Part shown: positions 11,812-14,604 of the stretch, in pieces
How the letters are laid out: each line of letters begins with the position of its first letter
How positions within the stretch are numbered: position 1 is the stretch's first letter
Position numbers and translations under genes: made by a program
The notes under the pieces: generated by a model
Seen by the model: only the letters and a program-made list of their open reading frames with translations
Databases searched by the model: none
Told to the model about the DNA's origin: nothing
Source: Breoghania sp. L-A4
GTDB lineage: Bacteria; Pseudomonadota; Alphaproteobacteria; Rhizobiales; Stappiaceae
Length of the DNA: 64,000 bases
Assembly (NCBI RefSeq): GCF_003432385.1
Contig: NZ_CP031841.1
Coordinates: 2,457,579-2,521,578 of the forward strand
Direction of reading: 5' to 3'

Positions 11812-12432
11812 ATGAAGCGGTTGGTGATGGCGGCGGGCGCCCTGGGGCTGGTGCTTTCGGGGTGCGCCGGACAGGCCGTGGGCACGCCGAAATCCTGGTA
11901 CGCCTATCGCAACGCGGTCGCGCCGAGCAGCGCAAAGGTGGTCATCTGCCACGGCTTTGGCTGTGCCTGGCGCACGCCGGTGAGCTTTTCATCCGCCGAC
12001 ATGAAACAGTTGGCCTCGATCCTGAAAAACGGCGCGTCGTCGCCGCAGGCGGAACGCGCCGCCATATCCCGCGCCGTGCAATGGCAGGAAAAGCGGGTCG
12101 CGCCGGTCGTCGGTTCGGCCAACGACGCAGGCGGCTTTGACGCGCAGAACGCCGGCGTGCGCGGCCAGATGGACTGCATCGACGAGGCGACCAACACGAC
12201 CAGCCTGCTGGTCGTGGCCGAGAAGGCGGGGCTTCTCACCCATCACAGCGTGCGCAGCCCGGTGGCGCGCGGCTTCTTCCTCGATGGACGCTATCCGCAC
12301 GCCACCGCCGTGGTCACGGAGAAGGCGGCGGGCAAATCCTTCGCGGTGGATTCTTGGCCGCACGCCAACGGCGTCGCGCCGGACATCATGCCGCTGGACA
12401 CGTGGTTCGCGAAATATCCCGGCGACGCCTGA
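11812..12432 (+). CDS. uncharacterised lipoprotein with conserved Cys, His and Asp
   Basis: A 206-residue protein with a lipoprotein signal (MKRLVMAAGALGLVLSGC, lipobox LSGC). I do not recognise a named family, though the body looks like a conserved alphaproteobacterial hypothetical. Striking short blocks are VVICHGFGCAWR, GQMDCIDEATNTT, GRYPHATAVV and FAVDSWPHANG. The order Cys-(Glu/Asp)-His-(Val)Asp-Ser-Trp resembles the layout of papain or transglutaminase-like cysteine enzymes (Cys, His, Asp with Trp nearby), which is inference only. The gene stands alone, divergent from the DJ-1 gene. Confidence 0.8.
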   Translation: MKRLVMAAGALGLVLSGCAGQAVGTPKSWYAYRNAVAPSSAKVVICHGFGCAWRTPVSFSSADMKQLASILKNGASSPQAERAAISRAVQWQEKRVAPVVGSANDAGGFDAQNAGVRGQMDCIDEATNTTSLLVVAEKAGLLTHHSVRSPVARGFFLDGRYPHATAVVTEKAAGKSFAVDSWPHANGVAPDIMPLDTWFAKYPGDA

Positions 12433-12654: not shown

Positions 12655-12808
12655 AAAAAAACGCCCACCGGTGGGAGGAGGTACCGGTGGGCGTCTTTTT
12701 TTCCTACGAGGCTGGGAGGAGGGTGCCTCGTCGGGCTCCTTGGGGGCTGGGAGGAGAAAGCCCCTTCGGATAGTGCGCTGTCAAAGTGGGGAGGAGGTCA
12801 CTTCAACG
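12655..12808 (-). ncRNA. CcsR-like anti-Shine-Dalgarno small-RNA module 2 (four hairpins)
   Basis: Read on the minus strand, four stem-loops follow each other: 12784-12803, 12743-12764, 12708-12729 and 12662-12693. Three loops contain CCUCCUCCC and one CUCCUCCC, the complement of a strong Shine-Dalgarno sequence and close to the ACCUCCU at the 3' end of 16S rRNA. The last hairpin has a perfect 10-base stem (CGCCCACCGG) and is followed on the minus strand by seven T (12655-12661), so it is also an intrinsic terminator. Rhodobacter CcsR RNAs (CCUCCUCCC stress RNAs, also called cuckoo RNAs) have this design and lie after a DUF1127 gene, as here. Transcript ends are inferred. Confidence 0.72.
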
Positions 12809-12860
12809 GCGCAAACTGTGCGGACCAAACGGTGGTCCCGGATTGTGCGTGCCCGACTTA

Positions 12861-13018
12861 GGGAAAACACGCCCACCGGCGGGAGGAGGTACCGGTGGGC
12901 GTCTTTTTTCCTAGGAGGCTGGGAGGAGGGTGCCTCGTCGGGGTCCTTGGGGGCTGGGAGGAGGTAGCCCCTTCGGGATGTGTCCTTGAAATAAGGGAGG
13001 AGATTATTTCAAGGGCAC
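12861..13018 (-). ncRNA. CcsR-like anti-Shine-Dalgarno small-RNA module 1 (four hairpins)
   Basis: The module begins ten bases after the DUF1127 stop codon. Minus-strand hairpins are at 12984-13014 (11 perfect pairs, loop UCUCCUCCC), 12950-12971, 12915-12936 and 12870-12901 (10 perfect pairs), the last three with CCUCCUCCC loops. The last one is followed by TGTTTTCCC and also has six T on the plus-strand side, so it may terminate both ways. The order and the last three hairpins are nearly identical to module 2, which shows tandem duplication of a unit of about 200 bases, while the first hairpins differ in stem sequence but keep the loop. That pattern means the loop, not the stem, is selected. 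Confidence 0.72.
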
Positions 13019-13023
13019 GAAAC

Positions 13024-13173
13024 TTAGCGGGCCGTCTTGCGGGCCACGAATTCGATGTCCGAGCGGCCGATGCCGAGATCGTGCAGCTCGCGGTTGGAAA
13101 GACGGGCGAGCTCGTCGTAGGTCTCGCGGTATTTCTTCCAGCTGTGGTACTTGCGCGTGATCGAGTTGATCAT
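13024..13173 (-). CDS. DUF1127 small protein (CcaF1/YjiS-like), host gene of the hairpin array
   Basis: This 49-residue protein is too short for usual ORF cut-offs. It starts MINSITRKYHSWKKYRET and ends with the DUF1127 core ELHDLGIGRSDIEFVARK. The ATG at 13173 has GGAGCA seven bases upstream. DUF1127 proteins are arginine-rich; one in Rhodobacter sphaeroides (CcaF1) is reported to bind RNA and is cotranscribed with the CcsR small RNAs. Here the stop codon is 10 bases before the first CUCCUCCC hairpin, so cotranscription is expected. The protein family call is firm; the RNA-binding role is by analogy. Confidence 0.88.
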   Translation of the reverse strand: MINSITRKYHSWKKYRETYDELARLSNRELHDLGIGRSDIEFVARKTAR

Positions 13174-13291: not shown

Positions 13292-13339
13292 CTGCAAAGC
13301 AGCCATGCAATTTGTGCAGAGCAGCATGTGCAGTGCACA
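13292..13339. promoter_or_regulatory. cluster of TGC/GCA inverted repeats upstream of the DUF1127 gene
   Basis: CTGC-AAA-GCAG (13292-13302) and TGTGCA-G-TGCACA (13327-13339) lie within 50 bases, with further TGC and GCA words between them. CTGC-N3-GCAG is the form described for PhaR, the regulator of polyhydroxybutyrate granule genes in Paracoccus. They sit about 120-165 bases before the DUF1127 start. Binding by PhaR is only a guess, and no phasin gene is nearby. Confidence 0.35.
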
Positions 13340-13647
13340 ATAATGGCGGAAAACCGTGCGTAACATGTTGATTGAGCGCGGCTTTCAAGGGCCTCGCGAT
13401 GCCAAAAATAGGAGCCTTTCTGGCGCGTTTCTCCTGCTTTCCGGTTCTCTCAACAAGCTTGCGCGTGCTTGCTCCGGAATGTCGCGGAGAGACTCGCCCG
13501 CATGGCGCGTGTTTCTTCTCGCACTGCCCGCCGTCACATCCGGTCCACATGGCCAGGGCTGTAACGCGCGACCATTAGGCCCGCATCCGTTTCCGCATTC
13601 CCAGTGAGGCATTCGTCATATTTGACGCGGGCTCGAGCCCGTCGGCG

Positions 13648-13788
13648 TCATACCCCGGCGAAGTCCGGGGTATCCAATCCCGCGTGCGGCAGGCGTATGG
13701 CGCATCGCGGAGCGGCATTGGATTGTCCACAAAAGCTCAAACCGTGCCGCACACAGAGTGGATCACCCGGACTTCGCCGGGTGATGAC
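13648..13788. repeat. REP-like palindromes, family A, two copies in opposite orientation
   Basis: Units at 13648-13676 (CCCCGGCGAAGTCCGGGG core) and 13761-13788 (ACCCGGACTTCGCCGGGT core) match the unit at 9290-9317. The surrounding 13360-13850 contains no convincing gene, and 13429-13500 looks like a further degraded REP of family C. Confidence 0.55.
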
Positions 13789-13856
13789 GGCGGAGGAGGG
13801 ATGATGACGCGGGAAAGACGGGGACGGTGGGCCATGAGCTGGCGGCCGATGCGATG

Positions 13857-13978
13857 GCGACAGGCGCACCCGCCGCTGTGGATCTTCAACTCTCTACGTC
13901 ATCCCGGACCGTGTGCGGCAGGCCGCATCACGCGATCCGGGATCCAGGAGGAACGCGCCCGCACGGCGCAGTGTTCTT
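13857..13978 (+). repeat. direct repeat copy A, left of the GIY-YIG gene (REP family C)
   Basis: About 120 bases beginning GCGACAGGCGCA, passing through CGCTGTGGATCTTCAACTCT and a REP unit (CATCCCGGACCG ... GATCCGGGATCCAGG), and ending in a C/T-rich tail. The second copy is at 14482-14604 in the same orientation. A third, inverted and shorter unit is at about 14340-14415. Confidence 0.65.
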
Positions 13979-13997
13979 CTCAATCGTCCGCCCACGC

Positions 13998-14282
13998 TCA
14001 TTCCAGACCGAATTCGAAGAGATCCCGCCAGTCCGGGTTTGCCTCCTCGATCAGCGCGAGCTTCCAGGCGCGCTTCCATTTTTTCAGTTGTTTCTCCCGT
14101 GCGATGGCATCGGTGACGCTGTCAAACCTCTCAGCCCAGACGAGCTTGGAGACGCCGTGGCGCGCCGTAAATCCGTCCGTTTGCTTGGAGGAATGTTCAA
14201 AGCCGCGCCGCGACAGATCCGTCGTCACGCCCACATAGAACGTCCCGTTGCGCCCCGACGCCATGATGTAGACATAGGCCAT
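13998..14282 (-). CDS. small GIY-YIG nuclease-family protein
   Basis: A 94-residue single-domain protein. The N-terminal MAYVYIMAS followed by GTFYVGVTTDL is the GIY-YIG signature (Y-I-M and Y-V-G), with the conserved Arg in LSRRGFEH and the KQLKKWKR block typical of the YhbQ/UPF0213 branch. The catalytic Glu is expected near AIAREKQLK. The cellular role of these solitary domains is not known. The gene is bracketed by 120-base direct repeats of REP type and lies within a repeat-rich stretch, which suggests mobility or association with the repeats. Confidence 0.88.
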   Translation of the reverse strand: MAYVYIMASGRNGTFYVGVTTDLSRRGFEHSSKQTDGFTARHGVSKLVWAERFDSVTDAIAREKQLKKWKRAWKLALIEEANPDWRDLFEFGLE

Positions 14283-14481
14283 GGCTCATCGTGAAATATG
14301 CGGATATCGGAGGCAAGAGCGCGGTGCTGGAAAAGAAGAATAGCGCCCTCCGGGCTCTTTCCTCCTGGATTCCGGATCTCTCGACACGCTGCGCGTGCTC
14401 GGTCCGGAATGACGCGGAGGGTTGAAGCCTGATGAGGGCTTGTGGGGCAAGATTGTCTTGGACAAGCCTCAGAGACAAGAC

Positions 14482-14604
14482 GCGACAGGCGCAACGGCCG
14501 CTGTGGATCTTCAACTCTCTACGTCATCCCGGACCGTGTGCGGCGAGACCGCATCACGTGATCCGGGATCCAGGAGGGATTCGCCCGCAGGGCGCCTGTT
14601 TCTT
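14482..14604 (+). repeat. direct repeat copy B, right of the GIY-YIG gene (REP family C)
   Basis: Same orientation and extent as the copy at 13857-13978, with scattered differences. The run from CGCTGTGGATCTTCAACTCT through the first REP arm is identical in both. The interval 14283-14638 otherwise holds only an inverted REP unit and no gene. Confidence 0.65.

Follow-up and report, generated by a model that had tools for sequence, protein, structure and literature searches.

A 64-kb stretch of the Breoghania sp. L-A4 genome (referred to as the window) contains an array of hairpins that follows a short DUF1127 gene and belongs to the ar14/cuckoo RNA family, a known kind of RNA that is present here in an enlarged layout. 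We consider it probable that this is a DUF1127-linked ar14/cuckoo small RNA (sRNA) locus whose module has been tandemly duplicated, that it yields a read-through transcript, and that the RNA acts in trans as a multi-target repressor at GGGAGGAG leaders, with LsrB as its likely activator. The combination of a DUF1127 gene and CCUCCUCCC RNAs is the published CIN1/CcsR arrangement, to which the tandem layout adds a new and useful case. The locus also unites two facts that have been published separately, the control of DUF1127 genes by LsrB/VtlR and the activation of an ar14 RNA by LsrB.

Architecture of the array and its relation to known RNA families

Read along the minus strand from position 13173 to 12655, the locus consists of the DUF1127 gene followed by eight hairpins whose loops all carry CUCCUCCC. 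The first-pass annotation had recognized a 49-codon DUF1127 gene upstream of the hairpins, and its product matches PF06568 with 55.3 bits (cut-off 23.3). The array begins ~9 bases past the stop codon; as in the CIN1 locus, where a short DUF1127 gene accompanies CcsR-like RNAs, the gene lies directly upstream on the same strand. The features are as follows (hairpins as predicted by folding):

13305..13318, minus strand: TGCA-N6-GCAT box TGCACAAATTGCAT, putative LsrB/VtlR-type LysR site, exact motif, which begins 145 bases before the start codon of DUF1127
13024..13173, minus strand: DUF1127 small protein gene, 49 aa, PF06568 profile match
12984..13014, minus strand: module 1 hairpin 1, 11-bp A/T-rich stem, loop core 12995-13002
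12950..12971, minus strand: module 1 hairpin 2, 6-bp stem, loop core 12956-12963, within the ar14 match
12915..12936, minus strand: module 1 hairpin 3, 5-bp local stem, loop core 12921-12928, within the ar14 match
12869..12902, minus strand: module 1 hairpin 4, 11 Watson-Crick pairs and 1 wobble, loop core 12881-12888, then an interrupted U-tract; ends the ar14 match 12865-12983
12822..12838, minus strand: spacer hairpin between the modules, 6-bp, lacking an anti-Shine-Dalgarno (anti-SD) loop
12780..12807, minus strand: module 2 hairpin 1, 9-bp stem with wobbles, loop core 12789-12796
12743..12764, minus strand: module 2 hairpin 2, 6-bp stem, loop core 12749-12756, within the ar14 match
12706..12731, minus strand: module 2 hairpin 3, 7-bp local stem, loop core 12714-12721, within the ar14 match
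12655..12694, minus strand: module 2 hairpin 4, 12-bp perfect stem, loop core 12673-12680, seven-U tract, distal intrinsic terminator; ends the ar14 match 12656-12775

All eight loops expose the motif on the minus strand, as had been claimed: eight CTCCTCCC sites lie between 12673 and 13002, there are no others in the window, and none of 100 dinucleotide shuffles reaches this number (mean 2.3, largest 7). Six loops are identical (CCTCCTCCC) and two read TCTCCTCCC, so that CCUCCUCCC occurs six times exactly and twice with a leading U. In the predicted fold of the full array every loop is open, with a mean probability of being unpaired of 0.997 as compared to 0.646 (maximum 0.801) in controls, and the minimum free energy of -167.7 lies about ten standard deviations below the control value of -107.3 (sd 6.0); the controls were 200 shuffles of the bases between the loops, with the loops kept. 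Folded separately, each module forms four local hairpins. When the full array is folded, however, the lowest-energy structure joins the third hairpins of both modules to one another at the expense of local pairing, and their loops stay open. The description as eight stem-loops is thus exact for the separate modules, and the full-length prediction comprises six plus a long-range pairing. The division into two modules of four also stands, as the modules are near copies in their last three hairpins (a 73-nt block of 95% and a 46-nt block of 96% identity, spaced by 207 and 208); direct comparison of the first hairpins confirms that their stems are unlike between modules while the loops are kept. 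The last hairpins, to which a perfect 10-base stem had been attributed, have 11 Watson-Crick pairs plus a wobble in module 1 and 12 perfect pairs in module 2.

The family assignment rests on the Rfam covariance model for ar14 (RF02344), a check that the first-pass annotation had proposed. Both modules match model positions 1-123 above the gathering cut-off of 58.8 (76.0 and 66.2 bits), and the idea of a categorically new RNA was rejected on this basis. A search of the genome with the same model returned only these two modules above the cut-off, the next match reaching just 20 bits, and the array is the sole place in the genome with paired loops. Hairpins 2-4 of each module, folded alone, reproduce the three hairpins with an unpaired anti-SD motif that characterize ar14. 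Among the published relatives are the alpha-r14 RNAs such as NfeR1 of Sinorhizobium meliloti, which likewise has three hairpins with CCUCCUCCC loops and an LsrB-type TGCA-N6-GCAT box upstream; NfeR1 is reported to be a 123-nt transcript with its own promoter, whereas here two tandem modules, each extended by one 5' hairpin, lie behind a DUF1127 gene. The Cuckoo family shares neighbouring hairpins, the same loop and variable stems (PMC3927594, PMC4504443). Its members are described with 2-4 adjacent hairpins, SmelA099 having four, as in each module here, and SmelA075 three (PMC3927594, PMC4504443); a single module falls within this range, but the 4 + 4 hairpins of the array, and the up to 12 of a relative, exceed it.

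The comparison with the CcsR RNAs and their DUF1127 association, also made in the first-pass annotation, is borne out by the published description of Rhodobacter sphaeroides, where four CcsR RNAs (CcsR1-4) lie behind ccaF1 at the CIN1 locus (PMC10253847). There, as here, a short DUF1127 gene is followed by several such RNAs with a terminator at the end, and ccaF1 is reported to be co-transcribed with them (PMC10253847). The two loci differ in that R. sphaeroides has four RNAs in place of two four-hairpin modules and a protein of 71 aa rather than 49; one CcsR RNA, RSs0680a, is described with two stem-loops (PMC3927594). Processing of CcsR1-4 is described as involving RNase E, aided by the DUF1127 protein. 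As to the suggestion that the layout may be new, the kind is known (ar14), and no description of tandem four-hairpin modules or of 9-12-loop arrays was found in the passages of the literature consulted, although prior publication is possible. No literature on Breoghania and small RNAs was found.

Occurrence in relatives, duplication and terminators

The two-loop pattern is present in at least 83 of the 87 genomes of the family and the three-loop pattern in at least 102 of the 397 genomes of the order. When runs are defined as three or more loops with gaps of at most 140, the scanned loci contain 74 runs of three, eight of four, six of six, one of seven, two of eight (the present array and that of locus L159), eight of nine (one a duplicate) and one of 12. 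Breoghania corrubedonensis carries twelve perfect loops after its DUF1127 gene, arranged as four modules of three, and nine closely spaced hairpins stand right behind DUF1127 in three genomes of one genus in another family (L155, L156, L173). In a Breoghania metagenome-assembled genome the array looks decayed (L052, 3228-3490), with only four perfect loops, some loops changed and DUF1127 intact. Across relatives the hairpins keep their pairing while the stem sequence is not kept: a stem of at least five pairs is found in 205 of 277 distinct hairpins, as compared to 13.7% after arms were exchanged between loci, and there are 105 different inner arms. This agrees with the earlier claim that the loop is the selected part.

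The position of the array relative to DUF1127 varies. The gene is just upstream in 15 of 20 arrays chosen by hand among the loop-pattern matches listed, with long arrays favoured. In 76 named loci, which were found via DUF1127 and therefore do not test its association with the loops, at least two loops (counted by eye) precede the gene in 40 loci and follow it directly in 16, so that co-transcription of DUF1127 and array is not general, and the Breoghania sp. L-A4 array shows one of two layouts. The locus itself sits within a uvrA-trmFO interval that is common to several families and in which array size differs; these gene names were assigned by reading the sequences, the trmFO ORF corresponding to Pfam GIDA. 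A uvrA-like and/or trmFO-like gene is present, as here, in 68 of 94 loci, and three or more loops (counted over the whole stretch) occur in 58 of these 68 as compared to 12 of the other 26. Several other elements were noted in the surroundings. A family of dispersed direct (up to 97% identity) and inverted repeats of 30-63 nt is found at 13460-14604, between DUF1127 and the uvrA-like gene. The two genes also flank a 94-aa GIY-YIG domain protein (PF01541; 13998-14282, minus strand), for which tblastn at 1e-8 found no match in the relatives' loci searched. A 206-aa ORF at 11812-12432 (plus strand) belongs to no Pfam family and has relatives around the array in 16 distinct loci (19 rows, three of them duplicates).

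In a tree of 36 modules, the two from the Breoghania sp. L-A4 array group together (96/94), so that they were duplicated or homogenised recently. Modules of Roseibium, Rhizobium and Mesorhizobium cluster mainly by position, with the third Rhizobium module weakly placed (81/58) and L117_m2 on its own; those of B. corrubedonensis do not separate clearly. The terminators of the two modules are unequal. The distal one, with its seven T, is full, and the claim that the last hairpins serve as terminators stands for it; for module 1, where the hairpin is followed by G-TTTT-CCC, the claim is doubtful, and a reading in which both terminators are equal was rejected, the full U-tract being present at the distal one only. 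The same asymmetry is seen among 19 multi-module arrays, in which internal modules average 3.7 T in nine bases (n=21) and final modules 6.5 (n=17), means that include the duplicate L163 from the same contig as L054. Within arrays, the last module has more T in these nine bases than every internal module in 12 of 12 cases, a set that includes several close relatives and leaves out L163 along with L156, L157, L158, L168, L052 and L056, which have no stem of at least seven pairs on one side. As internal U-tracts are weaker than the last one, the internal hairpins look like weakened terminators, and read-through of internal modules appears likely from these sequence features.

The upstream box and the likely activator

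The box upstream of DUF1127 has the TGCA-N6-GCAT form that has been described as the LsrB motif of the NfeR1 promoter (PMC10746234). The motif occurs four times in the window, as compared to 3.2 expected, and its single occurrence at DUF1127 would be weak evidence of LsrB control. Across the 76 loci, 38 carry the motif at -170..-100 of DUF1127, as compared to a mean of 0.11 and a maximum of 1 after shuffling, and the TGCA block aligns across the 12 loci aligned; the exact motif is missing near the gene in the other 38, some of which have related forms. Among control bins upstream, 13 loci have the motif at -458..-388, four have it in another bin and 0-3 in each of the other five. All 17 loci with a box at -529..-388 have it in front of another loop array, which links the box to the loop RNAs. 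The genome encodes an LsrB/VtlR orthologue (63% identity, next matches 24-30%), a LysR protein that NCBIfam did not name above its cut-off. Both sequence features expected for NfeR1-type regulation, the upstream box and a genomic LsrB orthologue, are present. The ORF beside the lsrB/vtlR orthologue presumably encodes a thioredoxin reductase. According to published accounts, VtlR controls DUF1127 genes in Brucella (PMC12595884) and a small-protein gene in Agrobacterium (PMC7486931), and LsrB activates NfeR1. The Brucella VtlR 15-mer, compared with the region upstream of DUF1127, finds a best match with 5 mismatches.

Another reading, which leaves the function as proposed, replaces LsrB control with an RpoH-type stress promoter as at R. 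sphaeroides ccaF1-CcsR1-4. The upstream region contains, 216 bases before the start of DUF1127, a CTTGAAA stretch that resembles the RpoH -35 element of alphaproteobacteria. An RpoHI/RpoHII promoter is stated for ccaF1-CcsR1-4 (PMC10253847), in contrast to the LsrB-type box found here. However, CTTGAAA occurs at -300..-100 in the Breoghania sp. L-A4 locus only (0 of 75 other loci, a weak test with one exact word), whereas the TGCA..GCAT block is shared, and we regard an RpoH-type promoter as rather unlikely.

Other arrangements of boxes and DUF1127 genes were seen among the relatives. Several arrays have a further DUF1127 gene downstream (L049, L052, L162, L164, L172), which in L049 and L052 is preceded by a similar TGCA-rich element, as seen by eye. 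In L057, L065, L071, L104, L109 and other named relatives (~2040-2775), loop arrays stand by themselves upstream of DUF1127, as many as three in succession, and there a TGCA-N6-GCAT box precedes the array nearest DUF1127.

Candidate targets and proposed mode of action

Computed duplex energies single out one type of leader. With GGGAGGAG the loop reaches -17.8 kcal/mol as compared to -12.5 for the 16S tail, whereas the tail is stronger with AAGGAGGU (-13.6 versus -12.0 kcal/mol for the loop) and CAAGGAGA (-8.3 versus -7.5 kcal/mol); the 16S tail sequence used is our assumption. Among the three SD words computed, the loop is thus predicted to outcompete the 16S tail at GGGAGGAG only, because it contains a CCC that the tail lacks. 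The pattern GGGAGGAG-N3-11-ATG, an SD word plus ATG sought in the sequence independently of gene annotation, occurs 22 times (21 sites) in the Breoghania sp. L-A4 genome and three times when reversed. An ORF of at least 80 aa follows at 16 of the 21 sites (none at five), 14 of them with a Pfam family, and the candidates include five solute-binding proteins and two transport membrane components. B. corrubedonensis has 36 sites (seven reversed) leading to 28 ORFs, 25 with Pfam families, including six solute-binding proteins and one transporter ATPase fragment. The control SD word CAAGGAGA gave 30 sites (two reversed) and 19 ORFs, 14 with Pfam families, including no solute-binding protein and one transporter ATPase fragment. 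Against this small, one-word control set, solute-binding proteins make up 11 of 39 Pfam-annotated candidates in the two Breoghania genomes versus 0 of 14 (Fisher p=0.022, uncorrected), and all transport parts 14 of 39 versus 1 of 14 (p=0.038, uncorrected).

These small counts suggest that GGGAGGAG leaders favour transport solute-binding proteins, although such proteins may often have strong GGAGG leaders in any case. Transport mRNAs have been predicted and tested for NfeR1, and by analogy the bias fits its transport targets; it does not amount to proof of targeting. In its working the proposed RNA would also resemble AbcR1/2 (ar15), sRNAs that act on ABC transporter transcripts (PMC5461406) and of which AbcR1 is described as under LsrB (PMC8844928). 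AbcR1/2 are a different family from the ar14-type array, and no ar15/AbcR match was found in the Breoghania sp. L-A4 genome. NCBIfam gave no name above its cut-off to an E1-type candidate target, whose tie to the pyruvate dehydrogenase effect announced by the title of the CcsR paper is therefore no more than suggestive.

We propose that one transcript begins upstream of DUF1127, passes the weakened module 1 terminator and stops at the distal one, its 3' part acting in trans either uncut or as two processed RNAs of some 120-160 nt. Each open CCUCCUCCC loop would pair with GGGAGGAG-type Shine-Dalgarno sequences and block ribosome binding, as suggested by NfeR1, which is reported to silence an mRNA by pairing through these motifs (PMC10746234). 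As several GGGAGGAG leaders belong to transport solute-binding proteins, the likely role would be a stress- or redox-triggered restriction of nutrient uptake, for which an LsrB-type regulator would be the likely activator. Loop number may set dose or valency; the three motifs of NfeR1 are described as acting redundantly. Taken further, the number of loops per transcript could be an evolutionarily tuned dial, in which modules would have multiplied in situ between uvrA and trmFO, the terminators inside the array would have been weakened, and a redox-controlled 8-12-loop RNA would silence many GGGAGGAG messages at once; we offer this extension tentatively and consider it doubtful. The arrays form a natural series of 3 to 12 near-identical loops, in which one could measure directly how loop number affects the silencing of targets.

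Two accounts would assign the hairpins a function other than mRNA silencing in trans. They could act only in cis, serving the DUF1127 mRNA as a double terminator and as a 3' UTR that protects it, with loops that are incidental, as their closeness to the stop codon and the good terminator at the end of the array would allow. This is improbable, as the loop sequence is kept while stems change and termination does not require a fixed loop, related ar14 RNAs are reported to act in trans, and many relatives have their arrays upstream of DUF1127. Alternatively, the C-rich loops could bind the DUF1127 protein or another RNA-binding protein, which the array would titrate. Repeated identical loops suit such a sponge, and CcaF1 is reported to bind RNA and to promote CcsR maturation (PMC10253847); however, Salmonella YjiS is described as lacking RNA binding (PMC12501420), and the loop is an anti-SD sequence of the type through which NfeR1 pairs (PMC10746234), making a protein sponge a quite unlikely explanation. 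Autoregulation, a feedback in which the loops pair with the DUF1127 leader, draws on the shared strand, the probably shared transcript and the general match of the loops to SD sequences, but was rejected as highly improbable on the weak pairing of the Breoghania sp. L-A4 leader (-5.6 kcal/mol) and the near-absence of suitable leaders, GGAGG being present in just 1 of 75 DUF1127 leaders and GGGAGG in none. The ribosome decoy put forward in the first-pass annotation was dismissed for its wrong pairing polarity: as mimics of the 16S anti-SD, the loops would bind SD sequences of mRNAs, not ribosomes.
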